Shown here: positions 5,161 through 41,891 of the stretch, one piece after another
How the letters are laid out: each line of letters starts with the position of its first letter
How positions within the stretch are numbered: position 1 is the first letter of the stretch
Origin: Myxococcales bacterium
GTDB taxonomy: Bacteria; Myxococcota_A; Polyangia; Polyangiales; Houyiibacteriaceae
Length of the DNA stretch: 52,076 nucleotides
Direction of reading: 5' to 3'
NCBI GenBank assembly: GCA_019637115.1
Contig: JAHBWH010000039.1
Span: forward strand, 1-52,076
Made by a program: the position numbers and the translations under genes
The notes under the pieces: generated by a model
What the model was told of the DNA's origin: nothing
The model's database searches: none
What the model saw: the letters and a program-made list of their open reading frames with translations, nothing else

Positions 5161-5838
5161 TCAAGATTCGTGTGGCGACGTCTTCGCCTCGCGGCGGCGC
5201 GGCCGCTCTGGAGGACCGTAGTGCTCACTCAGGACGCGGCGCAGATCGGTGTAGAACATCCCGTACGTGCGGCTACCGAAGTCATAGAATATTCGATCCA
5301 TCTGACAGCCGTTCACGTAGCCGCGGAGGAGGGCGCGCACGACGGCGCGACCACGCCCGTCGTCGTTTACATGCACATCCCACGCGATGCTCTCCCGCGA
5401 CTGGGGTGTGTACCACATGGACTCGGCGTATGACTCTCTGACGGCGATCAGTTTCGGAGCGGTGCGGATGACCGGGGACTCCGTCACGAGCTCGTAGCCT
5501 TGGGTTCGGAGCGTGATCATCACCGCGGATCGAACCTCATCCGAGGTGTAGCGGCTGAAGGAGCGGTGCCCCAGCGTCTCCGCATCGCCGGTGGTCAACG
5601 AGCGTCGGTTCGCGTGGCGATCATGTCCGCAGCCCCCGTGGGCGATCGCCATGGCGGCCAGCCCGAGGATGGCCGCCCGGGCGCTCGATCCGGGTTCTCG
5701 CGGTCGCGGGCGTGCCTCTCGTGTCGCTGAGCCGCCGGTCCTCTGGCGGCCCGGTGAGCGACCTCCGGGCCGATCGTCCCCAGCGTTCTGGCCGGAGCTC
5801 GTCGGGTGGTGCTCGCGCGCGGTTGCTTCTCTCCCCAT
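5161..5838 (-). CDS. Probable membrane-anchored or lipoprotein hypothetical protein
   Basis: The frame runs 225 residues from an ATG at 5838, which is preceded by AGAAAGGCG. Residues 1-50 are hydrophilic and Arg/Pro-rich. A hydrophobic segment at about 52-70 (AAILGLAAMAIAHGGCG) ends in a GGC that could be a lipobox, which would imply an unusually long cytoplasmic leader. No ATG, GTG or TTG lies nearer that segment, so a shorter start is not obvious. The remaining 150 residues look like a compact alpha/beta domain with a repeated Tyr-rich C-terminus (RIFYDFGSRTYGMFYTDLRR). No family recognised. Confidence 0.6.
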   Translation of the reverse strand: MGREATAREHHPTSSGQNAGDDRPGGRSPGRQRTGGSATREARPRPREPGSSARAAILGLAAMAIAHGGCGHDRHANRRSLTTGDAETLGHRSFSRYTSDEVRSAVMITLRTQGYELVTESPVIRTAPKLIAVRESYAESMWYTPQSRESIAWDVHVNDDGRGRAVVRALLRGYVNGCQMDRIFYDFGSRTYGMFYTDLRRVLSEHYGPPERPRRREAKTSPHES

Positions 5839-5927
5839 CTGACGGCGCCTTTCTGTTCAGTTCAGACCACCCAGACCCTGAGCGCTCGGACCTCCTGCGT
5901 CAATTGACCCGGCCACGATCCACGAGA

Positions 5928-5954
5928 AGCATATTTCGGTCGATTTCGTCGCAA
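5928..5954 (-). promoter_or_regulatory. Possible promoter of the 5161-5838 gene
   Basis: The only AT-rich island of the 5839-6350 spacer contains, on the minus strand, TTGCGA (5954-5949) and TATGCT (5933-5928) separated by 15 bases. It lies about 90 bases upstream of the ATG. The spacing is short for sigma-70, so this is tentative. The rest of 5839-6240 shows only a short direct repeat TTCACCAACC at about 5994-6014. Confidence 0.25.
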
Positions 5955-6239
5955 TTTCGTACGATCCGAGGACACTCGGACCGTTGCTCTTCACCAACCT
6001 TCACCAACCTTCACGAGACGCCGTTGGGGGTCGCTCCACCGTGAGTCGGCCGTCCCATTCACCCGGTCGGTGGGTTGAAACGGAGCCAAGATGCGGCGCA
6101 GGAGGTGACCCACACGACGAGGTGGTGGAGGGAAGTGGCCACCTCGTGGCTCGCTCTGGAGTGGTCGCGTCATCCACCCGGACCCCGAGCATCGGCGTTG
6201 CGCTCGCCCTCAGCAGCCAAATCCGAGAGCGCCACGAAC

Positions 6240-25126: not shown

Positions 25127-25864
25127 TCACCGAAGGAGCACGACGCCGTCCGCGCGGTGGAAGTAGCTGGGTGGCTGTCCCATGAAGCGGCGCGCGGTTC
25201 GCGTGTAGTGGGCCTGGTCGGCGAACCCGGCGAGCGACGCCGCCGTCGCGATCGAGGCGCCCTCGCTCTGCGCGGCGTACGCGGCCAAGAGCTTGCGCCA
25301 GAGCGCGTACGTCTTCGGCGGGAGCCCGGTGACCTCGGCGAAGACGCGCGAGGCGTGCCACGGCGAGAGGCCGACGGCGCGCGCGAGCTCGGCCAGCTCG
25401 AAGGATGGGTCGCCGTCGAGGCGCTCGCGCATCACACGAACGCGGCGGTCTTCGCGCCGGCGCGACGCCTGGTCGTCGACCAGGCGCCGCGAGAGCTCGC
25501 GCTGGACGTCGCGCGCGTCGCGCGCGAGCGTGTCGAGCCCGCCGCGGGCGATGGCGCGGAGATCCTCGGCCACGCGACCCTCGATCGGGCCGCTCCGCGG
25601 TAGGCTCGCCAGCAGGCGACCGTCCGCCGCGCGAGGGTCGAAGAAGAACGTCACGCAGGGGCCCTCGCAGCCGGCGACGTTGGGCTCGTCGGGGACGACC
25701 CAGAACGGCGCGCGCGTGCGCTCGAGCGCCCTCTCGTGCGGGCCGACGTCGACGAAGCCGTCGAGCGGGATGAGCAGCTTCGCCGCGTGGTGCGCGTGTC
25801 GGCTCGTTCGAGCGAGGGCGGCGACGTGCACCCCGCCACCCTCGGCGAGCAGGACGGTGGTCAC
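25127..25864 (-). CDS. AraC-family transcriptional regulator
   Basis: The GTG at 25864 overlaps the TGA of the giant gene (GTGA, 4 bp). This fixes the start and makes the gene the third member of the HSP90-like operon. The 245-residue protein has an N-terminal beta-rich sensing domain (HAHHAAKLLIPLDGFVDVGP) and a C-terminal AraC double helix-turn-helix: FELAELARAVGLSPWHASRVF, then IATAASLAGFADQAHYTRTA ending RFMGQPPSYF. It may autoregulate the operon or respond to a ligand; the position is consistent with either. Confidence 0.9.
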   Translation of the reverse strand: MTTVLLAEGGGVHVAALARTSRHAHHAAKLLIPLDGFVDVGPHERALERTRAPFWVVPDEPNVAGCEGPCVTFFFDPRAADGRLLASLPRSGPIEGRVAEDLRAIARGGLDTLARDARDVQRELSRRLVDDQASRRREDRRVRVMRERLDGDPSFELAELARAVGLSPWHASRVFAEVTGLPPKTYALWRKLLAAYAAQSEGASIATAASLAGFADQAHYTRTARRFMGQPPSYFHRADGVVLLR

Positions 25865-28800
25865 TCGGCGCTCATGAGGCGCGCGTAGGTGCCCATCTGC
25901 GTCGCCTCCGTGACGTGCGCGCACGCGCGATCGAGGACGCCCACGACGTGGGCGACGAGCACGCGGACGCCGCGCTCGGCGTCGCCGGTCTTCGCGAGGC
26001 GCGCCGCCTGCAACGCGATGAGCGCGGGGTGCTTGCCGCCGAGCACGAGCTCGCTCGTCGCCGCCTCGTAGCGCGCGAGGCCGCGGTAGCGGTCGTCGAA
26101 GCGCGCGCGCACGATGCGTTCGGGCAGCCCGAGCGCGCCGAGCATGGCGAGCAGGTGGTCGCCGAGGGGGTCGAGCGCGTGGGGCTTGGCCGCGGGGGGC
26201 TCGGGTCTCGCGCGCTGGCGCAGCTCGTCGAGCTTGGCGCGCACGGCGCTCGGCTCGTCCTTCGGCTCGGCGCCTGATCTGCCCCCCGATTCGCCGCCCG
26301 ACTTGGTGCCCGATTGAGCGCTCGACGTCGGAGTCGTGCCGCCCGCCGCCGCGACGGCGTCGGACATCTCCATCAGCCCGCGCATGAACGCCTCGGCGTC
26401 CTCGGGCGTGAGCGCGCGGCTGTCGTGACCCTCGTGCTCGGCCTCGACGCCAGCGTCGGTGACGATCGGCGTCGGGGCCGCGCGGCGCGCGCGGGGCCCG
26501 AGCGCGAGCTCGATCTGCCCCGCGGTGCGCGAGCCGTCGAGGAGCAGCGCCATGAGCTTCCTCGGGAGCTGCTTCTTCTCGCTCGCGTCGCGCACCGGGA
26601 CGGCGTGGCTCTCGTGGAGGAGCACCTCCGCGACGTCGCCGAGGCTCCGCGGGCGCGGGTGGAAGCACGGCACGTCGAGCTTCGCCGCCTCGTCCTTCGG
26701 CTGCCAGAGGCGTGTGGTGATCGCGTAGACGAGGTGCGCGATCGCGAGGTCGCGGCGCGCCTCGGGGACTCGCCCGTCGACGAGGCGTCGCGCGAGGAGC
26801 TCGCAGGCGTCGGCGTACGCGAGCCGGAGCGCCTCGTCGACGCGCTGCAAGGGGTGGCCGCTGCGCGCGATCGCGACGACGACGCCGCCGGCGATCGGCA
26901 AGGGACGCGGCACCAAGAAGCCCGCGACCTCCACGCTCGGCTCGTGCTCGTCGACGAAGCTCCCGAAGTCGACGCGCAGGCGTCCGCCCGCGAGGTCGTC
27001 GCGCAGCCAGAGCTGGCCCCGGATGGCGCCGGGGCCGCGGAGGACCTTCGAGTGGCGCGCGTCGAGGAGCGCGCGCGCGAGCGCGTCGGCGGGTGCGGGC
27101 GCGAGCGCTTCGACGCGCCCCTTCAGGGCCGCCTCGGCGGCCTTCTCGACCGCCTTGCGCACGCGGCGGAGGTTGTGGTCGTCGACCACGTCGTCGTAGA
27201 CGTCGTTGGGCGTCAGCCGCGGGTCCTCCACGACTGCGACCACCGGCCAGTCGAAGCCCGTGGACCGCACGCCGAGCGGCACGCCCTCGCGGTGTACGCG
27301 CAGCCCCTCGAGGTCGCTCGGCGTCGCGAGGAGGCCGACGACGCCCTTCGGCTGCTTCGCGGCGAGCGTCGTCTCGGCCATGAGGTGTGGGCGCGCCGAG
27401 GGCGGCAAGAGCAGGTTCTTCACGCGGGGCTTGGCGAGGTTCACACGCGCCTGGTCCTCGCGGATCAGCTTGTCGGCGGCGTCGTAGAGCGTGAGGTGCG
27501 CGCCGAGCGCTTGCGCCTCGGCGGACACGAGTCGCAGGGCGAAGCGCTCGGCGGCGAGCGGCTCGCGCCGGCGGTCGAGCGCCCCCTGCGCGCTCGTGTA
27601 CCAGACCTCGCCGAAGCGCTTCTCCTGCGCGCGGACCTGCTCGAGCGTGAGCCAGCGCTCGCTCGTCGTCTCGAAGAGCGCGTGTCCGCGCACCTCGGCC
27701 TCGTCGAGCAGGCCCGACGCGAACGCCTGGCGCACGCCGTCGCGCACGAAGCGCGGGTGACGGTCGAGGTTCGGGAGGACCTTCTCGCGCAAGAGCGCGG
27801 CGGTGAGCTTGCGGAGCGGCTCCGTGAGCCGCTGGCCCGTCGTGGCGGGGCTCTTGCGCGCCTCGTCCTCGAGCGCGGGCGCCTCCATCACGACACGCAC
27901 GGAGGGGCGGATGTCGAGCGGCAGCCAGCCGACGAGCGCGCCCGAAGCGAAGACGCCCACCTGCGATCGGGTCTCGTCGACGAGCGCGACCTCGCCGGGG
28001 CCGAGCAGGCTCGGCATTCGCTGCTTCCCGAGGAGCCGCCGGATGGTCTCCTTCCGCTCATTGGGCACCTCGGGCAGCGTCGGCGCGGAGACCATCCCGT
28101 GCCGCACGCGACGCTCTGCCTGGAGCGTGCGGGCCGCGCGCGTGAAGTCGAGCAGCGAGCGCGGGGCGGCGAGCGCTTCGATCACAGCGCGCAGCTTCGC
28201 GTTCGCGCGCAAGGAGAGCACCGGCCGGTCGAGGGTGTGCGGGTCTTCGTCGTCGGCTGGCCCGAGCCACGCGCCCTCGTGGTCGGCGACGCGGACGCGG
28301 CTCTGGGTCGAGGCGTCGTCGATCGAGACGTGTTGCCCCTGGATGCTCGGGAACGCCGCGGCGCGGCAGAGCGCGGCGGCGACGCGGCTGCCCTTGCGGG
28401 CGTGCTTGCCCGCCCAATGCTCGAGCAGGCCGAGCACCGCGGCGTCGGTGAGCAGGCGCTCCGGGCTCGACTCTGCGATCGCGACGAGCAAGGGCCCGAT
28501 GGCGCGATTGGCCGCGCGCTCGAGCGAGGTGCGCGCGTCGGGGGTGAGCCCCTCGAGATCGGGGCCGAGCGCGTCGAGCGGCAGGTCGACGACGAGCTCG
28601 AGCGGCGCCTCGGTGCGGAGCTCGAGCCGCTCGTAGGGGTGGCCGTCGACCCGCACCTGGACGGTCGTCACGGGGCGCCAGCCGCTCGCGAGCCGGGCGA
28701 CGCCAGAGACGTCGCCGAGCTTCACCTCGCCCGGCTGGACGGGCGGCAGGGGCTCGGGGGGCCAGCGGCGGAGCTGCGCCTCGCGCCGCGCGCGCTCGAG

Positions 28801-31800
28801 GGCCCGGCGGCGACGCGCGAGCTCTTCGCGCCCGTCGGTGATCTTGCGGCCGAGGATGCGCCCGAGCGCGGTGGCGACGTGCAATGGGAGCTGCACGGGC
28901 GCCCAGTCGAGGTCGCCGACGGCGAGCTGCGGCTCCACGAAGACGAGCGCGCCGCGCTCTTCGCGGAGCTCTTCGAGGGTGGCGAAGCTGCCGTCGGCGA
29001 GGGGCACGAGCGGGAAGGCGCGCGCCTTGGCGCGCCTGGCCGTGTCGAGGCTCGAGAGCGGGGCCTCGGCCAAGGCGACGAGGATCGCGTCACGCACCCA
29101 AGGGAAACGCTCGATGGTGGTCGGGCCGCCGAGGAGCGCCGTCGGCGCGCCGCCGAGCGCGTCGACGAGCGCGTCGAGCAGCGCGCGCTCGAGCTTCGGC
29201 ACCTCGAGCGGAATCGGCGACTCGAAGGCGACCCCGGTCGCGCTGCCGGTGGCGTTCGTCTCGGGCACCAGCCGGTCGTCGTCAATCGCGATCACGCAGC
29301 GGAGCAGGCGGAGCCGCAGGTTGCGCGTGACGTTGCCGCCGTGGTTCGAGCTCGGGTGCGGGAGCGGGACACGCTCGACGCGCTCGCCACGGTGGAAGCG
29401 CAGCAGCTCGGGGTCGCGCTGGGTCAGCGCGACGACACAGCGACGACCTGCCTCTGCGTCGTCGATCGCGAGCGCGAGGTCGCCCGCGCTCACGACCCGG
29501 CGCGCGAGCTGCGCCGAGGCGAGCGGCTCGCCCCGGCGCGGGTCGTAGTCCACCCATTGCATCTGCGGGAGCACGCTCTCGAGGGCGGCGCGGTCGAGGG
29601 CCTCGGCGTGGAGCGCGGCGGGGCGCGGGAGCGGCGCGCCGAGCGTGTCGAAGGCGACGCGGAGCGCGCGGGGATCGCTCTTGGACTCCGCGCGGAGCGC
29701 GCGGGGTAGATCGCGGAGCGGGCGCCACGCGAGCTGCCCGTCCTCGCTGGCGGTCGGCCAGACGGGCAAGCGACCGAGCGCGTGCCGTCGCAGCGAGGGC
29801 CCGATCGGATCGTCGGTGCGCGCGGCGCTCTCCCGACGACGCGCGTCGGTCACGTGGCCTCGCATCGCCTGCCGGAACGCGGCGCGCCAGGCGTCCGAGA
29901 GGGCGTCGATCGGGGGGACCCCGAGCGCGCGCATCCGCTTCGGGAGATCGTCGCCCGGTCGGTCGAGGTGGTGCGCGAGGCGCTCGACCGCCTCCCGCTC
30001 GGCGGCGGCCAGCGCGCGCATCACGGCCTGGAAGACGGCGTCCTGTCGAGGGCTGCGGTAGTCGGAGGCCGGGGTGAGGCGCGCCGAGACGACGGCCACC
30101 CAAGGCCACGACGCCTCGGCGTCGACCGCGCCGATCACGCGCCCATCGACCAAGAGCGTGACCTGGCCGCTGCGGCGGCGCTTTAGGCCGAGGCCCTGCG
30201 GGTCGAGCAAGACCAGCTCGCCGCGCAGGTCGAGCTTGGCGTCCTCGAGCGTGAGGGCGAAGACCTGTCCGGGCGCGGGATCGACGACCGGTTCGCGTTG
30301 CTCGTGGCGGAGCCACGCCTCGCGCAGCGCGAGCTGGCGCCGCGCGTCCTCGATGGAGCGCTTGGCGTTCGGCACCTTCGCGTCGCCGAGCAGGAGCGCC
30401 GCGGGGTCGCCGGGGGGCACCCAGAGCACGTCGCCGAGCCAATCCGCGAGGGCGGCCTCGACCGGCTCGCGCCCGACGTGGACGATCGGCTGCGGCGTGA
30501 GGTCGCCCGGAGCGCGGACGCGCCCGAGCGCGTCGAGGACGAGCGGCGTGTCGCGCAGCGGCGCGAGCGCCGAAGGCAGGGCGGCCTGCGCGCCCACCCA
30601 GTCGCTCCCCGCGACGGCGGCGGCGTAGAGCCGCAGCGCCGCGAGTCGAATGGGCGCGACGTCATCGAGGTGAAGAAGTCCCCCTGCCCCAGAAGCGGAC
30701 TCGGACCCCGACGCGGTGTCATCGGGACGAGAAGGTCCCCCTGCCCGTGCCCCTGCCCGTGCCCCTGCCCCGGAACCAGACTCGGACCCAGACTCGGACC
30801 CAGACTCGGACCCAGACTCGGACCCAGACCCAGTCTCAGACGCCGACCCGGACCCTGCCCCAGAAGCGGCCTCGGAAGCGGACCCGGACCCAGACCCGGT
30901 CTCGGAACCGGAAGCAGACCCAGCCCCGGACGCAGACCCCGACCCGGCCTCGGACCCAGCCCCCAAAGCCACCCGAAGCGGCTCCACCAGCGCCTCCACC
31001 AGCGCCGGCAGCCGCTCCAGCGCGCGCTCGATCGCCCGCCGCACCGGCGCGTCGCCCTCGCGAACCGCAGAGCGCGCGGCGTTCGTGGGCAGCCGCGGCG
31101 CGTCGAAGTACACCCGCAGCGGCAACCCCGCGACCGGCGCGGGCAGCGCGGGCAGCGCCATCGTCATCCGCGCCAGCACCGCGCCCCGCTCCGCCAGCTC
31201 GACCAGGATTCCGTCGCGCCGCCCGCCATCGCGGGTCACGGCCACGAAGCCGTCGAGCCCATCGCCGAGCGGCAGCCGCAGGACGTCGTCGCCGACGCTC
31301 GCGTCGCCGCGACCGCCCACACGCTGCCCCGACACCACCACGGGTACGCGCGCGTCGCGTGTCGCCTCGAGCAAGAGCGCGAGCTCGCTCGCCTGCCTGC
31401 CGCTCATGAAGCGCCCGATCACGTCGAAGCCGAAGCTCCGGCGCACCTGGAACGCCCCGCCCGACGAGAGCGGTCCGCCGGTCTCGGTCACGAGCCGGGC
31501 GGCGAGCTCGGGCGGCAGCCGCGCCGCCTCGGGTGCCAGCGCGCGCAGCCGCTCGCCGTCGTCGAGCAGCCGCGGCGTGTAGCGCACGCGCATCGCGTCG
31601 CCCTCCGCGGGCACGGTCCAGACGTCGACGAAGCGCGGGTCGATGCCGAGCGCCGTGTTCACGCCGATCGCCGCGAGGCGCGCCCAGCGCCGATCGCCGC
31701 GCGTCTGCGGGCTCACCAGCACGTCGAGCAGGCGCGCGAGCTCCTCGGCGTCGGGGCTCGGGCCGCGCCACCCGAGCCAGACGTCGTCGGCGTCACCCCA

Positions 31801-31953
31801 GGCCTCCACGTGCGTCGCGCCGAGCGCCACCGCGGCGCGGAAGCACTCGAGCACCCACGCGAGCGGATCCGGGAGCTGGTAGTCCCGCAGCTTCGCGACC
31901 GCGCGGGCCGCGTCGACGCGGAGGTGGCCGCCTCCGATGCGCTTGCCCTTCAC
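25861..31953 (-). CDS. Giant HSP90-like (degenerate GHKL) multi-module protein
   Basis: 2030 residues, starting at a GTG (31953) that overlaps the stop of the HSP90-like gene (GTGA). The first 330 residues align with that neighbour. ECFRAAVALG (36-45) replaces ELVQNAIDAG, losing the Mg-binding Asn. WRGPSPD replaces the DxGxGM loop. ARLAAIGVNTALGIDP replaces the glycine lid. A Gly/Ser/Glu linker follows. Downstream, related modules recur at about 590-650, 1085-1165, 1330-1400, 1545-1620 and 1645-1725. Each has a beta hairpin with a DG or xxG turn, a strand ending in a P-L/LTP motif, then a long Ala/Leu helix. Another acidic Gly/Ser linker lies near 1880-1910, before a His-containing helical C-terminus. 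It is presumably an inactive scaffold or client-binding partner of the ATPase; that is inference. Confidence 0.85.
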   Translation of the reverse strand: MKGKRIGGGHLRVDAARAVAKLRDYQLPDPLAWVLECFRAAVALGATHVEAWGDADDVWLGWRGPSPDAEELARLLDVLVSPQTRGDRRWARLAAIGVNTALGIDPRFVDVWTVPAEGDAMRVRYTPRLLDDGERLRALAPEAARLPPELAARLVTETGGPLSSGGAFQVRRSFGFDVIGRFMSGRQASELALLLEATRDARVPVVVSGQRVGGRGDASVGDDVLRLPLGDGLDGFVAVTRDGGRRDGILVELAERGAVLARMTMALPALPAPVAGLPLRVYFDAPRLPTNAARSAVREGDAPVRRAIERALERLPALVEALVEPLRVALGAGSEAGSGSASGAGSASGSETGSGSGSASEAASGAGSGSASETGSGSESGSESGSESGSESGSGAGARAGARAGGPSRPDDTASGSESASGAGGLLHLDDVAPIRLAALRLYAAAVAGSDWVGAQAALPSALAPLRDTPLVLDALGRVRAPGDLTPQPIVHVGREPVEAALADWLGDVLWVPPGDPAALLLGDAKVPNAKRSIEDARRQLALREAWLRHEQREPVVDPAPGQVFALTLEDAKLDLRGELVLLDPQGLGLKRRRSGQVTLLVDGRVIGAVDAEASWPWVAVVSARLTPASDYRSPRQDAVFQAVMRALAAAEREAVERLAHHLDRPGDDLPKRMRALGVPPIDALSDAWRAAFRQAMRGHVTDARRRESAARTDDPIGPSLRRHALGRLPVWPTASEDGQLAWRPLRDLPRALRAESKSDPRALRVAFDTLGAPLPRPAALHAEALDRAALESVLPQMQWVDYDPRRGEPLASAQLARRVVSAGDLALAIDDAEAGRRCVVALTQRDPELLRFHRGERVERVPLPHPSSNHGGNVTRNLRLRLLRCVIAIDDDRLVPETNATGSATGVAFESPIPLEVPKLERALLDALVDALGGAPTALLGGPTTIERFPWVRDAILVALAEAPLSSLDTARRAKARAFPLVPLADGSFATLEELREERGALVFVEPQLAVGDLDWAPVQLPLHVATALGRILGRKITDGREELARRRRALERARREAQLRRWPPEPLPPVQPGEVKLGDVSGVARLASGWRPVTTVQVRVDGHPYERLELRTEAPLELVVDLPLDALGPDLEGLTPDARTSLERAANRAIGPLLVAIAESSPERLLTDAAVLGLLEHWAGKHARKGSRVAAALCRAAAFPSIQGQHVSIDDASTQSRVRVADHEGAWLGPADDEDPHTLDRPVLSLRANAKLRAVIEALAAPRSLLDFTRAARTLQAERRVRHGMVSAPTLPEVPNERKETIRRLLGKQRMPSLLGPGEVALVDETRSQVGVFASGALVGWLPLDIRPSVRVVMEAPALEDEARKSPATTGQRLTEPLRKLTAALLREKVLPNLDRHPRFVRDGVRQAFASGLLDEAEVRGHALFETTSERWLTLEQVRAQEKRFGEVWYTSAQGALDRRREPLAAERFALRLVSAEAQALGAHLTLYDAADKLIREDQARVNLAKPRVKNLLLPPSARPHLMAETTLAAKQPKGVVGLLATPSDLEGLRVHREGVPLGVRSTGFDWPVVAVVEDPRLTPNDVYDDVVDDHNLRRVRKAVEKAAEAALKGRVEALAPAPADALARALLDARHSKVLRGPGAIRGQLWLRDDLAGGRLRVDFGSFVDEHEPSVEVAGFLVPRPLPIAGGVVVAIARSGHPLQRVDEALRLAYADACELLARRLVDGRVPEARRDLAIAHLVYAITTRLWQPKDEAAKLDVPCFHPRPRSLGDVAEVLLHESHAVPVRDASEKKQLPRKLMALLLDGSRTAGQIELALGPRARRAAPTPIVTDAGVEAEHEGHDSRALTPEDAEAFMRGLMEMSDAVAAAGGTTPTSSAQSGTKSGGESGGRSGAEPKDEPSAVRAKLDELRQRARPEPPAAKPHALDPLGDHLLAMLGALGLPERIVRARFDDRYRGLARYEAATSELVLGGKHPALIALQAARLAKTGDAERGVRVLVAHVVGVLDRACAHVTEATQMGTYARLMSAE
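29793..29873 (-). repeat. In-frame copy of the ~80-bp dispersed element inside the giant gene
   Basis: It matches the intergenic copy at 24003-24083 and encodes HVTDARRRESAARTDDPIGP (about residues 695-720), between a helical stretch and the next beta segment. It is a likely insertion of a repeat into coding sequence without loss of frame. Confidence 0.75.
30670..30965 (-). repeat. Gly-Ser-Glu low-complexity linker array
   Basis: Repeated 6- and 12-bp units (plus strand TCGGACCCAGAC and TCGGACCCGGAC-like) encode alternating SGSESGSE and GSGSAS blocks, residues about 330-428 of the giant protein. The array separates the degenerate GHKL domain from the modular region. Confidence 0.9.
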
Positions 31954-33557
31954 GACGCGGCCCCCGGCAGGATGGTGCCGAGCGACGCCTCGGCGAGCGC
32001 GCGGCAGGCGCCGTCGTCGAGGCGCCCGTGCTCCAGCAAGATCGCGCGGGCGAGGAGCTGCGCGGCGAGCTCCGGATCCGTCGGCGCGAACGCGCGCGCT
32101 CGCTGCACCAGCGGGGCCTCGGCCCGGAGCAAGAGCGCGGGCGGTCGTCGCAGGAGCCGGAAGGGGTCGCCGTCGAGCGACTCGCGCACGAGCGCGGTCG
32201 GGCTCGGGAGCGGGCCGCCGAAGGCGACGCGCGCGGGGCGCTTGCCCTCGACCGCGACGAGCGCGAGGTGCTTCGGGCAGCGCGCGGCGACCTCGAGGAG
32301 CGCGCGGAGCCGATCGAGCATCGCGCCCTCGGCCGGCGTCGCGTCGCGGACCTGCAGGAGCGTGGCGTGGTCGCTCGCGTGCACGAGCTCGAAGCGCTCG
32401 CGGAAGAGGTCGGCGCCGCCGCGCGCCTCGCGGGCGATCGAGAGATCGACCACCGGCACGCCCGCGGCCGCGAGCGCTTCGGTCAGCGGGCTGGCGCGAT
32501 GCGCGCAGAGGGGCTCCTTGCCGAGCGCGCGCCGTGGCCGCGCGCGTTGCCCGTCGAGCGGGTGCAAGAGCGGGAGCGGCACGTCGCGCAGCGGGACGAC
32601 CCCGCGATCTCCGTGGGCGCGGGCGAAGAGCGCGCCGAAGCGGGCGGCGTCGTCGCCGAGCACGGCGGCCTCGAAGGACGCGATCACCTCGGCGTGCATC
32701 CGCTCGGCGACCTGACGCACCGCGCGGAGCGCGCGCTCGAAGGCGGCGTCGCGGCGGACGTCGTCGCGGCTGAGGGTGTGGGAGAGGCGCGCGTCGAGCA
32801 CCTTCACCGTCAAGCCAGGCAAGGGTGAGGGCATCTCGGCGAGCGTCAGGCCGTGGTTGAAGAACGCCGCGCGGCCGACCTCGTCGCTCGTGACGGCGAC
32901 CACGACGTCCGTCTCGCCCACCTGGGCGCGGAGCGTGACGAGCGCGCCGTCGACCACCTCGAAGGGGCGGTCGATGCGCTCGCCCTCACCGCTCACGTGG
33001 AGCCAGATCGGGACTCGCGCGTGGCGGCACCATTGCTCGAGCGCGGCGCGGCTGCGTCGGGCGACGTCGGGGAGCTTCTTGCCGCGGACCTCGAGGCTCA
33101 CGGTGGTGCCGGCCGCGCCGCCGCCGAGCGTCTCGAAGAGCTCGTAGGAGTGGTCCGCCATCAGGTGCAGCGTCCACGAGCGGCCCGTGCCCTTCGAGGT
33201 CGTGACCGTGACGCGCTCGGGCGAGAGCGCGAGCACGCTGATGAAGCCGACGCCGAACTTGCCGATCTTCCCCTCCATCCCCTCCTTGCCGGAGCGGAAG
33301 AGCACGAGGAGCTTGTTCTCGATGACGTCGGGGTCCATGCCCTCGCCGTGGTCCTGCACGGAGACGCGGACGGCGTCGCCGTGGGCGTCGAGGCGGACGT
33401 CGATGCGCGGGGTGCCAGCGTCGATGGCGTTCTGGACGAGCTCGCGGAGGAAGGCGTAGGGGTCGGCGAATTGCTTGACCAGATCGTCGACGAGGCCGTC
33501 GTTCTCGACGGGCTGTCCGTCGCTCTGGACCGTGGAGCCTCGGTAGGGCGTCGCCAT
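31950..33557 (-). CDS. HSP90-like GHKL ATPase
   Basis: The ATG at 33557 (MATPYRGSTVQSDG) gives 535 residues; a start 12 codons upstream is less likely. The N-terminal domain has the complete GHKL set: E39 and N43 in RELVQNAIDAG, the D69-H-G-E-G-M loop, the glycine lid GKIGKFGVGFIS (96-107), and GTTV near 150. A middle domain follows with SHTLSRDDVRRDAAF, as in HSP90/HtpG-type proteins. The C-terminal 200 residues are Ala/Leu/Arg-rich, without a canonical HtpG dimerisation domain. It is shorter than HtpG (about 620) and lacks its MEEVD-like end. First gene of the operon, coupled to the giant paralog-containing gene by a GTGA overlap. An ATP-driven conformational role is expected; the client is unknown. 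Confidence 0.88.
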   Translation of the reverse strand: MATPYRGSTVQSDGQPVENDGLVDDLVKQFADPYAFLRELVQNAIDAGTPRIDVRLDAHGDAVRVSVQDHGEGMDPDVIENKLLVLFRSGKEGMEGKIGKFGVGFISVLALSPERVTVTTSKGTGRSWTLHLMADHSYELFETLGGGAAGTTVSLEVRGKKLPDVARRSRAALEQWCRHARVPIWLHVSGEGERIDRPFEVVDGALVTLRAQVGETDVVVAVTSDEVGRAAFFNHGLTLAEMPSPLPGLTVKVLDARLSHTLSRDDVRRDAAFERALRAVRQVAERMHAEVIASFEAAVLGDDAARFGALFARAHGDRGVVPLRDVPLPLLHPLDGQRARPRRALGKEPLCAHRASPLTEALAAAGVPVVDLSIAREARGGADLFRERFELVHASDHATLLQVRDATPAEGAMLDRLRALLEVAARCPKHLALVAVEGKRPARVAFGGPLPSPTALVRESLDGDPFRLLRRPPALLLRAEAPLVQRARAFAPTDPELAAQLLARAILLEHGRLDDGACRALAEASLGTILPGAAS

Positions 33558-36229: not shown

Positions 36230-37255
36230 TCACGGCGAGGTCGTGAGCTGCAGGTCGAAGGCGATCCGTTGGACGCCGCGCGGGAGCTCGTCGAGGTCGC
36301 GCGGCGCGTCGGGCAGCGCGCTTTCGGGCGCGAGCACGAAGAGCAAGCGCGCGGGCCCGGCCTCCGAGAGTGGTGGCTCGCCCGTCGGGACACGGAAGAT
36401 CAGCGCGCCGCCGTCGACGCGCTCCGGCGTGACGTCGAGCCGCTCGAGCGCGCGTTCGCGCACGAGCCACGCGCGGGCGTCCACCGGCGCCTCGACGCGG
36501 GTCGCGGGCCGCAGGAGCACCTCGAGCTCGCGCCCCAGCGCGTACGCGCGAGGGCCCGGGCTCGGCGGGTCGACCGTGTCGTCGCGATGCGTCGCGTCGG
36601 GAGTCGGGGCGACGAGCGCGTAGGTGGGGAGCTCGGTCCTCGTCGCGCGGGGCAAGATCCAGAGCGTCGCCGCGGCGGCCGCCGCGAGGGTGACCGCGAC
36701 GGCGGTCCACCGGCGAATGATCTTCGGACGCGGAGACGCGCCGTGCGTCGGAGCGTCGGAGCGGCGCGTCGCGCGCGCGTCGGGCTCCTCGGGGCGTAGC
36801 GGGACGACCACGGCGCCAGGCGACGCGCCTGTCGTGAGCTCGGCGTCGCGCGCGTCGCCGCGGGTCGAGCCTGTCGCGGCGACCGGGGCGCCGTGTGCAG
36901 GTACGTCGTCGCTCGAGGAACTTGTCGCGGCGACCAGGGCGCCGCGCGCGGGCGCGTCGTCGCTCGTGGAACCGGTCGTGGCGACCGCGCGCGCGGGCGC
37001 GCCGTCGCTCGTGGAACCGGTCGCGGCGACCCCGCGCGTGGGCGCGTCGTCGCTCGTGGAGCCTGCCGCGAGCTCGTCGCCATGTGTGGCGGGGTCGGAG
37101 ATCCCGAGGCGGCCCAGGATGCTCTCCGTCAGTCGCGCTTGCTCCTCGGCGCGCAAGGGGCCGAGCGTGTCCGAGGCGTCCGGGTCCATGGCCTCCTCCT
37201 CTTCTCGCAGGTGTCGACCGAGCGCGTTCAAGAGGTCGTCGTCGCGGGCGCTCAT
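36230..37255 (-). CDS. Anti-sigma-factor-like membrane protein with tandem repeats
   Basis: 341 residues. The N-terminal 60 residues are acidic and helical (DDLLNALGRHLREEEEAMDP), suitable for sigma binding. Then comes a linker of about five 15-residue repeats (TGSTSDDAPARG variants; about 36870-37080 in DNA). A single membrane helix (AVAVTLAAAAAATLWIL, about 185-202) and a 130-residue extracytoplasmic beta-rich domain follow. The ATG overlaps the stop of the ECF sigma gene (ATGA), the usual sigma/anti-sigma layout. It would hold the sigma factor at the membrane until an envelope signal arrives; no zinc-binding HxxxCxxC motif is seen. Confidence 0.75.
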   Translation of the reverse strand: MSARDDDLLNALGRHLREEEEAMDPDASDTLGPLRAEEQARLTESILGRLGISDPATHGDELAAGSTSDDAPTRGVAATGSTSDGAPARAVATTGSTSDDAPARGALVAATSSSSDDVPAHGAPVAATGSTRGDARDAELTTGASPGAVVVPLRPEEPDARATRRSDAPTHGASPRPKIIRRWTAVAVTLAAAAAATLWILPRATRTELPTYALVAPTPDATHRDDTVDPPSPGPRAYALGRELEVLLRPATRVEAPVDARAWLVRERALERLDVTPERVDGGALIFRVPTGEPPLSEAGPARLLFVLAPESALPDAPRDLDELPRGVQRIAFDLQLTTSP

Positions 37256-37884
37256 GCGATCTCTCCGGTGTGCAGCGACGAAGGGGCGAGCTCGCTCCGA
37301 ATCGCCGCGACCTCGCGGCGCAAGCGCGTGCGGAAGGTATAGAGCGCGTTCGGCGACATGGCGAAGTCCGCCGCGATCGCCTCGACGTCTTGCTCCTGCA
37401 CGTAGAGCGCGTGAAAGAGCGCGAAGCCGCGCGGGCTCAAGCGCTCGCGCAGGCGCTCGACGAGGCGCTCGAGCAGCTGGCGCGCGCCGAGCTGCCGCTC
37501 GGAGTCGACGTCGCCGCCGACGCTCGACGCGAGGAAGGCGTCATCGGTCGGCGCCTCCGCCCAGCCGCTCCGCCGGCCGCTGCGCAGGAACGCGCCAGCC
37601 TCGCGCTCCGCGACCAGGCCGACGAAGTTCGCGAGCGAGAGGCCGCGCGAGGGCTCCCAGCTCCGCAGCACGCGCCCGTCGCGGTCGAGGAGCAGCACGA
37701 AGATCTCCTGGATCAAGTCCAGGACCTCGTGCCGCTCCACCGGTCGCCCGCGCCGCGCCGCGTGGGCGGCGAGGACACGGGCGACCCGATGACGGATCAC
37801 CGGGGTCAGCCGCGTGATGAACGCGCGGCAGGCCTCGGGGTCGCGCGCGAGCACCGCGTCGACGAGGTCATGGTCACCAGTCAT
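37252..37884 (-). CDS. ECF-type RNA polymerase sigma factor
   Basis: The ATG at 37884 follows AGGAG. The 210-residue protein has a region-2-like part (HEVLDLIQEIFVLLLDRDGR...WEPSRGLSLANFVGLVA) and a region-4 helix-turn-helix (ERLSPRGFALFHALYVQEQD then IAADFAMSPNALYTFRTRLR). It lacks region 1 and 3, as expected for ECF sigmas. It is the first gene of a coupled pair with the anti-sigma protein. Confidence 0.88.
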   Translation of the reverse strand: MTGDHDLVDAVLARDPEACRAFITRLTPVIRHRVARVLAAHAARRGRPVERHEVLDLIQEIFVLLLDRDGRVLRSWEPSRGLSLANFVGLVAEREAGAFLRSGRRSGWAEAPTDDAFLASSVGGDVDSERQLGARQLLERLVERLRERLSPRGFALFHALYVQEQDVEAIAADFAMSPNALYTFRTRLRREVAAIRSELAPSSLHTGEIA

Positions 37885-37910: not shown

Positions 37911-38657
37911 TCAGGGCGCGACCTCCACGCAGGTCCCACCGCCGGCCGGGCAGAACATCCAGCGGCCGATCGGGTAGGGCCCCGTCTCGAAGTCGTTCGT
38001 GAAGAACATGTAGAGGTCCTGGTTGAAGTCGACCGTGCCGGTCGCGGACTTCATCGTCTCGTCGCCCTCGGCGGCGAGGTCGACGTACGTGCGCGGCACG
38101 CCGTCGCCGTTCGCCGCCATCGCGTTGAGCGAGGGGAAGTCCTTCACCACGTAGGCCGAGGTGCCGTTGCTGATGAGGATCCGGCTCGCGAGCTGCAGCT
38201 CGAGCTGGAAGACGCTCGAGAACGCGCCGTCGCGCTCGCACGTCGGGCACGAGGGGATGCCGTTCGGGAGCGGGCACGGCTCGCCCGCGGTGATGTCGCG
38301 GATCGCAGACGAACGCGTGGGGTTGCTCCCCGTGGTCGTGATGGAGCCTGCCGAGGCGAGCTGTCGCGCCGTGGTCTGCGTGATCACGGTGGGGCCCGTC
38401 GGCGTGGTCGGACGCGTCGGGGTCGTGGGCGCCGTCGCTTGGCAGCGGGGGGTCGCGCAGGTCTGATCGCCCACGACCCACCAACACGACGGGAGCGGCG
38501 TGGACGGAGGGTCGGGATCGTAGGTGGGCGCCGCGAGGTCACCCGCGGCCGAGAGCGCGTACTGCCCTCCCGTCACGGAGTCTCCCTGCTCCATCACGCA
38601 CCCACCGAGGACACCCAACACGCACACGAGAGCGCGGCCGCGAGCATCGAGAGTCAT
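37911..38657 (-). CDS. Lipoprotein hypothetical
   Basis: The ATG at 38657 is preceded by GGAGG, spacing five. 248 residues; signal MTLDARGRALVCVLGVLGGC with lipobox LGGC. A Thr/Pro linker (TTPTRPTTPTGPT) separates a small N-terminal part from a domain with four Cys (EPCPLPNG, CPTCERDG, FCPAGGGTC). It lies 26 bases upstream of the sigma gene on the same strand and may share its transcript. No family recognised. Confidence 0.7.
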   Translation of the reverse strand: MTLDARGRALVCVLGVLGGCVMEQGDSVTGGQYALSAAGDLAAPTYDPDPPSTPLPSCWWVVGDQTCATPRCQATAPTTPTRPTTPTGPTVITQTTARQLASAGSITTTGSNPTRSSAIRDITAGEPCPLPNGIPSCPTCERDGAFSSVFQLELQLASRILISNGTSAYVVKDFPSLNAMAANGDGVPRTYVDLAAEGDETMKSATGTVDFNQDLYMFFTNDFETGPYPIGRWMFCPAGGGTCVEVAP

Positions 38658-38789: not shown

Positions 38790-41700
38790 TCATGGGACGA
38801 GGAGCACGAAGGCGCTCCAGTCCAATCCTCGTTCGTCGAGATCCACGACGGCCCGGAACAGGCGACCGGCGGGATCGTTCCCCTCGCCCCCGTGGTAGGC
38901 GCGACTGAAGGCCGCGGCAAGGCGATCCTCGATCCGCTCGAGTGTCGCCACCACGTGGTCGGCGCCCGCGACGACGAACGCCTGCGCGAGCCCGACCGTC
39001 GCCACGTGGCGCGCGGGCCGGGCGCGCGCCGTGCCGCAGCCGACCAGGATCACCTCCGCGGGCACGGCGCGCGCGGCGAGCACGTCGCTGATGGTGAGCG
39101 TCGAGCGCCCCGCGAGCGAGAGGCCGCTCTCCCACCACGCCTCGCCCTCGTAGACCGCGTGGCCAGCGTAGTGCAGCAGCCTCGCGTCGCCGAGCGCGGC
39201 GAGCACCGCCTCGCGCGTGGCGCCGTGTCCGAGCAACCACGTGTCGCGTGCGGTCGTCGGCGCGCGTTCGCGGAGCCAGCGCGCCTCCTCCCGCGCGCCA
39301 CCGAGGTCGCCGCGCGGGTCGAGGACGAAGAGCCGTCCCTCTTCGCGGCGGCGCGAGGTCGCGCGGGGCAGGTCGACCACGTACGCGATCGGCTTCGTCA
39401 GGCCGAGCGGCCTTCCGCCGAGCGCCACGCGGTGCAGCTGGGCGGCGGGGCCGCCGGACGGGGCGATCACGGAGAGTCGGTCGGCCGCCGCGATCGTGTC
39501 CGCGAAGGGGCCGAGCAGCGCTTCGAGCGAAGCCGCGGCGAATTGATGCTCGGCGGGCTGCTGGTGTGCGGGCTGCTGGTGTGTGGGCTGCTGGTGTGTG
39601 GGTTGCCGGTGCGCGGGCTGCTGGTGTGCGGGCTGCTGGTGTGCGGGCTGCTGGTGTGCGGGCTGCTGGCGTGCGGGCTGGTGTGCGGGCTGCGGGTGCG
39701 CGGGCTGGTGCTCGACCTGCAGGCCGTCCGCGCCGAGCGCGAAGAGGTAGAGTTCGTCGCCGAGGGGAAAGACGCCCAAGACGAGCTCGCCCGGGCGAGG
39801 CTCGAGCGGCGCCGGAGGTTGGCGGATCGCGGGAAAGAGCGCCTCGAGCAGCGCCTCGAGGCGGCGGCGGTGCGCGCGGTGCAGCTCCTCGGCGGCGGCG
39901 AGCTCGTCCTCGGGCCGCGTCCAGGCGTCTTTCGCCGCGGCGTCCATCTCGTGGCGGAGCTCCGTGTAGGACGCGATCAGCCTCTCGCGCGCGCGCCGCT
40001 CTGCCGGGGAGAGCTCGGCGAAGGTCGAGGCGACGTGCGGGAGCGACCAGAGCAGGCGCGCCCGCGCGCGGCGGGCCGCGAGGAAGGCCTCGTCCACGCG
40101 GCCTTGCGCGACGAGCGCGCGCACGAGCAACGCGGCGCTCTCCTCGCGACCGAGCGAGAGCGAGTCCCGCCCCATGCCGAGGGAGACGGTCGCGAGCTGC
40201 AGATCGAGCTCGTCCTCGCTCTCGCGCAACGCCTCGATCGCCTCGTCCGTGCGGCCCAGCGCGAGCAGCGCCTTGGCGCGTCCAAGCGCGCCGATGGGCA
40301 GGCGCTCTCCGGCGGCGCGGAGGCGCGCGCTCAGGGTCTCGTAGACGCGGAGGGCGCTCGCGGCGTCCCCCGCGTCGAGGTGCACGCGCCCGCGCACGTC
40401 GAGGAGCGCGACCTCGAGCGCGCCGTCGCCCGCGGGGGCATCGTCGCTCGCGCGTCGGAGGAGCGCCTCGGCGCTTTGGAGGGCGCCTTGAGAGATCTCG
40501 AGGCGCGCCAGGTTGATCAGCGCGTGGGCGCGTTTGACGGGGTCGGGGCAGTCGCCGTCGAAGAGCGCCAGCGCCGCCACCAACGGGGCGCGCGCGTCGT
40601 CGGCGTGGGCGCGCCCCGCCTCGAGCGCGAGCACGCGTTGCCAGCCGAGGTTCGTCAGCACGGTCGCACGATCGCAGGGCGCGTCCGAGGGCGCGTACGC
40701 GAGCGCTTCGTCGGCCGAGGACGCCGCGTGGTCGTGGCGCCCGAGCAGGCTCAACACCCAGCTCCGGAGCTGCAGCGCGCTCGAGCGCAGATCGGCGAGG
40801 TCGAGGCGGAGGGCGCGGGCCTCGGCCTCGTCGAGCTGCCGCAGCGCGGCGCCGAGCTCCCCGAGCCGCATCGAGAGCAGCGCGCGCTGGTAGACGAGCC
40901 AGGCCGCTCCCCAAGCGTAGGGGCCGGCGTGCGGCTCGAGCTCGTCGAGGACGGCGCGCGCGCCTGCGAAGTCGCGGAGCCGTTCGCTCCGGTTGAAGGC
41001 GCGGGCGAGCCCGTCGTCGATGGCCTCGGAGAGGCGCCCGCAGGCGAGCAGCGCGGGGATCGAGGCGCCGTAGAGGGTGTCGACGTCGGCGGGCTCGTTG
41101 CGAGAGAACGCGAGCCGCGCGCGCATGCCGAGGAGGCGCGCGCCGTCGCAGGGGTCCGCGGAGGGATCGAGCGTGGCCTCCCACTCGTCGAGCGCGGCGG
41201 CGAGCGCGTCGAGCGCTCCACTTCGGCGCAGCGCGTGGAGCTCGCCGAGCCGAGGCGGCACACGTGGCGTGCTTAGCGCCAAGCGACCGAGCCCGCCGGT
41301 CGTTCGGATCTCGAGCGCCTCGGATCCGGCGGGGACGCGGACCCGAAGACGAAGGCCCCCTTCGAGCTCGACCGACGCGTGGGGCTCGAGCGCGGCGCCG
41401 TCGGCCCTCACCTCGGCCTCACGGATCGGCACGAAGAGCGTGAGCTCGCGGGCGTCGGGCTCGAGCTCGCAGACTCCCTCGCTCGGCACGCGCGCGCAGC
41501 CGGCGTGCTCGAACGCGAGCGGTGCAGCGGGGGGCGCGGCTTCGTCGCAGCCGCGCGCGCACCCGAAGAGGAGCAGTGAGAGCGCCGCGCTGCAGGCGAC
41601 GTGAGGCGACGCTCGCCGGGGGGACGCCCACGCGTTGGCAACGAGGGACCCGGTGTCTTCGGCGGGGGTCGCGGAGCGCGGCGCGCCATGGACGGACGGC

Positions 41701-41891
41701 TGTGTGCCGGGGGCGGGGTGTCGAGGGGAGGGCGCGCGACGCGAGGGTCGACGGGTGGACGGCGGCGCGACGAGGGCGACGGGGGCGCGTCGGGCGGAGG
41801 GCGCGCCACGCGAGGGTCGACGACGGAGCGCCGAGCGGCGCCCCGTCGTCGCGCAGCGCGAGAGGAGTCGCGCGTGGCCCCGCCCCTTCAC
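38790..41891 (-). CDS. Exported TPR-CHAT (caspase-like) protein
   Basis: The conserved protein begins near 41630: a hydrophobic stretch with lipobox-like LLLFGCARGC, then a beta domain, about ten TPR-type helical repeats (about 200-620 of the full frame), a His/Gln/Pro repeat and a C-terminal CHAT domain with LLHYAGHAVYEG (catalytic His) and VILVGCGTARA (catalytic Cys). CHAT proteins are caspase-like proteases or protease relatives. The start is unclear. The frame extends to a GTG at 41891 through Arg/Pro-rich low-complexity sequence, and no ATG, GTG or TTG lies in frame near the signal. A TTG at 41641 lies in another frame, just before a six-C run. A frameshift or sequencing indel there would restore a normal leader. 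It precedes the lipoprotein, sigma and anti-sigma genes on the same strand. Confidence 0.8.
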   Translation of the reverse strand: MKGRGHARLLSRCATTGRRSALRRRPSRGAPSARRAPVALVAPPSTRRPSRRAPSPRHPAPGTQPSVHGAPRSATPAEDTGSLVANAWASPRRASPHVACSAALSLLLFGCARGCDEAAPPAAPLAFEHAGCARVPSEGVCELEPDARELTLFVPIREAEVRADGAALEPHASVELEGGLRLRVRVPAGSEALEIRTTGGLGRLALSTPRVPPRLGELHALRRSGALDALAAALDEWEATLDPSADPCDGARLLGMRARLAFSRNEPADVDTLYGASIPALLACGRLSEAIDDGLARAFNRSERLRDFAGARAVLDELEPHAGPYAWGAAWLVYQRALLSMRLGELGAALRQLDEAEARALRLDLADLRSSALQLRSWVLSLLGRHDHAASSADEALAYAPSDAPCDRATVLTNLGWQRVLALEAGRAHADDARAPLVAALALFDGDCPDPVKRAHALINLARLEISQGALQSAEALLRRASDDAPAGDGALEVALLDVRGRVHLDAGDAASALRVYETLSARLRAAGERLPIGALGRAKALLALGRTDEAIEALRESEDELDLQLATVSLGMGRDSLSLGREESAALLVRALVAQGRVDEAFLAARRARARLLWSLPHVASTFAELSPAERRARERLIASYTELRHEMDAAAKDAWTRPEDELAAAEELHRAHRRRLEALLEALFPAIRQPPAPLEPRPGELVLGVFPLGDELYLFALGADGLQVEHQPAHPQPAHQPARQQPAHQQPAHQQPAHQQPAHRQPTHQQPTHQQPAHQQPAEHQFAAASLEALLGPFADTIAAADRLSVIAPSGGPAAQLHRVALGGRPLGLTKPIAYVVDLPRATSRRREEGRLFVLDPRGDLGGAREEARWLRERAPTTARDTWLLGHGATREAVLAALGDARLLHYAGHAVYEGEAWWESGLSLAGRSTLTISDVLAARAVPAEVILVGCGTARARPARHVATVGLAQAFVVAGADHVVATLERIEDRLAAAFSRAYHGGEGNDPAGRLFRAVVDLDERGLDWSAFVLLVP
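39541..39720 (-). repeat. 15-bp tandem array encoding PAHQQ repeats
   Basis: Eleven or twelve 15-bp units (plus strand GTGTGCGGGCTGCTG) encode repeated QPAHQ pentapeptides in the CHAT protein, between the TPR region and the CHAT domain. His-rich and proline-spaced, it is likely a flexible and possibly metal-binding linker. Confidence 0.92.

Follow-up and report, generated by a model that had tools for sequence, protein, structure and literature searches.

A predicted exported TPR-CHAT protein encoded beside an ECF-like sigma factor and a transmembrane anti-sigma-like protein in Myxococcota

The CHAT gene of the window (the whole stretch of 52,076 nucleotides that was analysed) encodes a protein of β-sandwich–TPR–CHAT architecture that is predicted to be exported (Table 1). 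The protein matches the Pfam CHAT family (PF12770) with 68.8 bits against a cut-off of 24, and the same family is matched by all 36 members of the CHAT-family alignment at E up to 0.001. Its His/Cys dyad is intact, and both catalytic residues are kept in 69/69 distinct relatives that cover these columns, out of 71. The structure predicted from the window protein and 37 relatives (mean pLDDT 86.4, pTM 0.84) consists of a signal helix (residues 9-22), a β-sandwich (approximately 41-120), the array of TPR helices and the CHAT domain (615-946). A conserved pair of cysteines, residues 45 and 54 of the translation from 41630, is located behind the lipobox Cys, and the first member of the pair is kept in 62 of the 71 distinct relatives. 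The protein is a predicted caspase-like protease.

Table 1. Coordinates of the genes and features discussed, with the loci in which the two proteins are fused
Feature	Position	Strand	Details
CHAT protein, open frame	38790..41891	-	1033 aa; GTG 41891 is the only upstream in-frame start
Hydrophobic signal segment with lipobox-like LFGC end	41559..41615	-	Cys codon 41561-41559
N-terminal β-sandwich domain with conserved Cys pair	41271..41525	-	alignment of relatives and predicted structure
TPR helical array	39837..41255	-	helices 126-598 of the predicted structure; Pfam TPR matches
CHAT domain	38793..39797	-	His codon 39161-39159; Cys codon 39038-39036
15-bp tandem repeat (HQQPA-like)	39553..39707	-	disordered loop within the CHAT domain
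Small predicted lipoprotein gene, between CHAT and sigma	37911..38657	-	open frame
ECF-like sigma factor	37252..37884	-	TIGR02937; relatives
Anti-sigma-like protein	36230..37255	-	N-terminal helices, one TM helix (177-200), Ig-like periplasmic domain (208-341)
Fused loci	L092, L094, L095, L097, L098, L101, L102		one open frame each

The His-rich 15-bp repeat had been described beforehand as a linker. The repeat is present, but it does not separate two domains: in the predicted structure it forms a low-confidence loop (approximately residues 645-694) after the third strand of the CHAT domain itself. L025, the nearest relative (58% identity), has no such repeat, and the loop is not conserved.

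A hydrophobic stretch ending in LLLFGC precedes the TPRs, as the preliminary description had stated, and its Cys is shared by many relatives. The N-termini of 71 distinct family members (89 before duplicate removal) were classed by script. A Cys at the lipobox position is found in 46 of them, two of which (L085 and L103) are doubtful, resembling membrane anchors by eye. A further 14 have a hydrophobic stretch without the Cys. Four have no such stretch, namely L079, which is lipobox-like by eye, the fusions L092 and L101, and the ambiguous L164. The profile match begins late in the remaining seven, which are five fusions together with L087 and L125, partial or clipped by contig ends. Even distant relatives have the lipobox Cys at the corresponding position, followed by a second conserved element, the Cys pair, and this goes beyond chance. 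The general view that CHAT-TPR proteins are usually cytoplasmic, from which the preliminary description set out, does not hold for a sample of 20 other myxococcal CHAT proteins, the best-scoring matches in 57 genomes of the phylum. Judged by eye, a signal peptide or lipobox is present in 18 of the 19 with a readable N-terminus; L215 has no export signal, and L206 runs off its contig, so that its N-terminus is not readable. Exported CHAT-TPR proteins therefore appear to be common in Myxococcota.

Between GTG 41891 and the lipobox of the window gene, no in-frame ATG, GTG or TTG occurs across 110 codons. Codon potential in the lipobox frame is positive from position 41665 or so onwards, with a slight drop at 41620-41576, and the real start probably lies nearer 41650 than 41891. 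A canonical start is located nearby in most distant relatives with a lipobox; some relatives with a lipobox are without one. A one-base error had been proposed to explain the missing start and was rejected, because codon usage over 41665-41621 favours the lipobox frame (+3.9) over the frame that carries ATG and TTG (-7.4). No clear indel is seen where the upstream DNA of the window is aligned with L025.

The sigma factor of the window matches TIGR02937 with 31.4 bits (E 1.3e-7), which is below the curated cut-off of 42.9; among 24 relatives, Sigma70_r2 is matched in 10 and region 4 in one, at E up to 0.001. The sigma and anti-sigma-like genes overlap by 4 bp and share the strand of the CHAT gene. 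The pair announced in the preliminary description is therefore present, but it does not follow the CHAT gene directly, the small lipoprotein gene lying in between. A relative of this small lipoprotein was found only in L025 (39% identity) among 11 loci searched. Its homology to the N-terminal domain of the subtilases discussed below was considered and rejected on comparison.

With a helical N-terminus, a single TM helix, a periplasmic domain and a position adjacent to sigma, the anti-sigma-like protein fits the layout of a transmembrane anti-sigma factor, and it would hold the sigma factor through its N-terminal helices. Among the matches of 31 members of its family no Pfam anti-sigma family occurs at E up to 0.01, and no conserved Cys or His was seen in the family alignment. 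The periplasmic domain has Ig-like structural matches (Z about 8 to 10), which indicate a common fold only; its homology to the N-terminal domain of the CHAT protein was rejected (hhalign probability 0.1%). An Arg in a loop of the anti-sigma-like protein is invariant (31/31), and by eye the fused protein of L102 is without it. The disordered cytoplasmic part of the gene contains imperfect tandem repeats of 45/51 bp (36870-37060), so that in the source genome both the CHAT and the anti-sigma-like protein carry repeats in disordered stretches. Elsewhere on the minus strand of the window, a gene for an HSP90-like ATPase (31950-33557; HATPase_c_3, weak match to sacsin) overlaps the end of a 2030-aa frame (25861-31953), with which it possibly forms one operon.

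A sigma relative is present in 42 of the 50 loci found with the CHAT protein as seed, usually together with a one-TM anti-sigma-like gene, which directly follows sigma. Seven of the eight sigma-less loci are short-flanked (L035, L084, L087, L088, L099, L100 and L103), and the eighth, L026, has no linked sigma. Where at least 2.5 kb is available on each side, an ECF-like sigma factor is found in 42/43 distinct CHAT-seeded loci, and in 58/59 once sigma-seeded loci are added, the latter count being biased; duplicates were removed from these counts, and near-identical species are still included. The reverse search of named genomes with the sigma alignment led to 61 loci, including those of Sorangium cellulosum So ce26 and So0157-2, Polyangium, Sandaracinus NAT131 and Acidobacteriota bins, and a CHAT protein of the family is present in 39 of them within the stretches examined. 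Some of the other 22 loci reach contig edges; others are full-flanked, including L107 (Sorangium cellulosum So ce26) and L120, and at these two the sigma and anti-sigma-like genes occur together without CHAT, meaning that the pair can exist on its own. Across the order, CHAT is present in 37 and sigma in 40 of 183 genomes, both in 35. Sigma is thus found in 35/37 genomes with CHAT and in 5/146 others, a comparison whose significance is inflated by kinship, as the genomes are not independent.

The source genome contains a second, diverged copy (G000:C312; L035 895-3567 and 3805-5691) with an anti-sigma-like gene, a lipobox CHAT gene and a subtilase gene; its sigma gene probably falls beyond the contig end, and a partial sigma gene is located on another contig (G000:C25). 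At L157 a frame of 225 aa (5413-6090) upstream of sigma is similar to the CHAT family only in the lipobox and the N-terminal domain with the Cys pair; it may be a CHAT gene that was truncated or has decayed. Enrichment of 7-mers upstream of sigma and CHAT gave nothing informative, a PADLOC scan returned only weak BovA matches, and a profile scan of the genome contigs with family alignment A2 detected no relative.

A survey of 209 neighbouring genes from 29 named loci, grouped by clustering, revealed one large family of neighbours, present in 15 loci. These are subtilases: Peptidase_S8 is matched in 5/5 scanned, and the consensus (n=14) keeps the Asp, His, oxyanion Asn and Ser, the roles of these residues being our own assignment. 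Several of them open with a lipobox or signal peptide, as judged by eye. Among 59 distinct loci whose flanks are long enough, the subtilase model finds a match in 33. The match mostly shares the strand of CHAT and lies 52-390 bases downstream of it; in the Sorangium-like fusions this distance is about 3.2 kb. The window locus has no subtilase; L035, where the source genome carries its other CHAT gene, does have one. The N-terminal domain of the subtilases is also shared (hhalign 96.6%) by small lipoproteins at L113 (6302-6943), L119 (3579-4301), L135 (3282-4058), L144 (3425-4231) and L153 (3236-4096).

In seven Polyangiales loci, an anti-sigma-like N-terminus, a TM helix, a periplasmic domain, TPRs and CHAT follow one another in a single open frame. 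An HMM built from unfused anti-sigma sequences only matches six of these seven fusions at E up to 1e-3, L101 being the exception, and a model that included fused rows finds the anti-sigma part in all seven. Codon potential is unbroken across the joint in 4/4 fusions checked. A quick tree of 68 rows allows a single origin of the fusion within the split family (support 70). The fusions indicate that the anti-sigma-like and CHAT proteins are probably functionally linked. Moreover, since the TM helix of the anti-sigma part precedes the Ig-like domain, the CHAT part of the fusions sits after a membrane helix. Together with the conserved lipobox, this supports the earlier placement of the CHAT dyad outside the cytoplasm, and the proposed link to envelope signalling is borne out by the conserved sigma and anti-sigma-like neighbours and by the single-frame fusions. 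The set that is conserved at the level of sequence comprises a sigma factor, a one-TM anti-sigma-like protein, a predicted exported TPR-CHAT protein with its dyad and, often, a nearby subtilase that is likewise predicted to be exported, plus the fusions.

The first Foldseek entries for the CHAT model are DdvA (8rw5, 8rot), followed by the TPR-CHAT protein of Craspase and by separase. Structural alignment with VIA-align gives Z values of 24.1 for Craspase, 22.0 for separase, 21.4 for DdvA and 19.8 for gingipain K, where rows within 1 are tied. When the CHAT profile is compared with PDB sequences, DdvA is the best CHAT match (8.6e-12), and Craspase CHAT and separase are also found; with the anti-sigma-like profile, no DdvA chain is listed at E up to 10. 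Of the systems already described, DdvS/DdvA of Myxococcus xanthus comes nearest, ahead of Craspase/Csx30/CASP-σ. The cytoplasmic domain of DdvA is of the zinc type. DdvS/DdvA shares with the window an ECF sigma factor, a transmembrane anti-sigma factor and a TPR-CHAT part, and the seven fused relatives have the general layout of DdvA, with anti-sigma and TPR-CHAT in one transmembrane chain. By contrast, in the window these are separate genes, the CHAT protein has its own lipobox, and a subtilase is often located near modules of the present kind. The window module is regarded here as a split, predicted exported variant of the DdvS/DdvA kind. In the sampled text of PMC4374960, DdvA is the anti-sigma factor of DdvS.

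The other exported TPR-CHAT proteins of Myxococcota also combine a signal peptide or lipobox with TPRs and CHAT; they differ in that no sigma relative occurs in the 20 stretches around them, mostly one-sided. In RseA/DegS/RpoE, the sigma factor is held by a single-pass anti-sigma factor with a periplasmic domain. The one-TM anti-sigma-like protein would have the same arrangement, whereas the candidate first protease here would be a CHAT cysteine protease instead of DegS. An excerpt of PMC10028731 names proteolysis of the RseA/DegS/RpoE type as a parallel to CASP, and describes Csx29 as a TPR-CHAT protease that cleaves a sigma inhibitor. The type III-E CRISPR system Craspase/CASP therein resembles the window module in its TPR-CHAT protein with a His/Cys dyad, its ECF-like sigma factor and its sigma inhibitor. 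However, Craspase is RNA-guided (PMC10028731, same excerpt), and the window CHAT protein is predicted to be exported. Within the open full-text literature, no published module of split sigma, anti-sigma and exported CHAT was recognised, which is weak evidence of absence, as subscription articles and the primary DdvA papers fall outside that scope.

An excerpt of PMC9729208 equates D2151 of separase, at the S1 position, with K670 in the CHAT domain of Craspase. The equivalent of the separase S1 aspartate is not conserved in the CHAT family, and consequently no substrate preference can be read from it. Arg-specific cleavage through an S1 aspartate was considered and rejected, the invariant Asp902 aligning by hand count four residues before the position given in that excerpt. 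With this reading set aside, the invariant Arg of the anti-sigma loop stays only a candidate site.

The favoured interpretation, to which a probability of about one half is given, is a split, envelope-facing switch of TPR-CHAT, anti-sigma and sigma, in which CHAT would act on the anti-sigma-like protein as a protease. With its N-terminal helices, the anti-sigma-like protein would hold the sigma factor to the inner membrane, and in the periplasm its Ig-like domain would be in contact with the lipid-anchored TPR-CHAT protein. A signal received by the TPR or N-terminal domain would open the CHAT active site, and a cut in the periplasmic part of the anti-sigma-like protein would lead to its degradation and free the sigma factor. 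The nearby subtilase could be a second protease of the same response, either upstream or downstream. In favour of this reading are the linkage, the co-occurrence across genomes, the fusions, the topology, the invariant dyad, the fold and the precedent of Csx29. As a predicted lipoprotein, the CHAT protein may end up in the outer membrane, at a distance from the anti-sigma-like protein in the inner one, which counts against such a switch. So do the lack of a Pfam anti-sigma match, the sigma score below the curated cut-offs, the sigma/anti-sigma pairs without CHAT, the CHAT gene of L026 without linked sigma and the S1 position that is not conserved.

ECF sigma factors often drive neighbouring genes. 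The CHAT protein, and the subtilase where present, might accordingly be exported proteases that act as effectors in the sigma regulon and not as regulators of sigma. The location of CHAT on the strand opposite to sigma in 13 of the 58 distinct loci with sigma, the sigma/anti-sigma pairs without CHAT and the control of an antiphage island by DdvS of M. xanthus (stated in an excerpt of a review) all agree with this, but the seven fusions favour regulatory contact, and the effector role is rather doubtful. It is unlikely that the TPR-CHAT protein serves as a non-cutting sensor or scaffold, bound to the periplasmic domain of the anti-sigma-like protein while another protease makes the cut: the fusions and the linkage fit this equally well and a subtilase is often nearby, yet the invariance of the His/Cys dyad (69/69) is unexpected if catalysis is not needed. 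A cytoplasmic CHAT protein, with the hydrophobic stretch upstream of the real start, agrees with the window's lack of a canonical start close to the signal but is highly improbable: distant relatives conserve the lipobox and mostly have a start close by, the Cys pair behind the lipobox is conserved, and the fusions put CHAT after a TM helix.

It was already known that a caspase- or separase-like CHAT protein can target a sigma inhibitor intracellularly (Craspase) or be built into a transmembrane anti-sigma factor (DdvA). In the present module these components are encoded by individual genes, with predicted export, across many Myxococcota and some Acidobacteriota, and both split and fused forms occur; dozens of relatives of the soil-type source bacterium keep the gene set. 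These arrangements are genetically distinct and include named Sorangium and Polyangium strains, so that a periplasmic CHAT protein as the first cut in sigma release becomes directly testable, with the subtilase as an added candidate partner protease. Tentatively, the family may represent a new extracytoplasmic protease relay of Myxococcota and Acidobacteriota, in which an exported TPR-CHAT protein of caspase-like type, often together with an exported subtilase, would cleave a one-TM anti-sigma factor on its periplasmic side and release an ECF sigma factor; it would then be the periplasmic counterpart of Craspase/CASP-σ, and DdvA-like single chains would have arisen from this relay by fusion.
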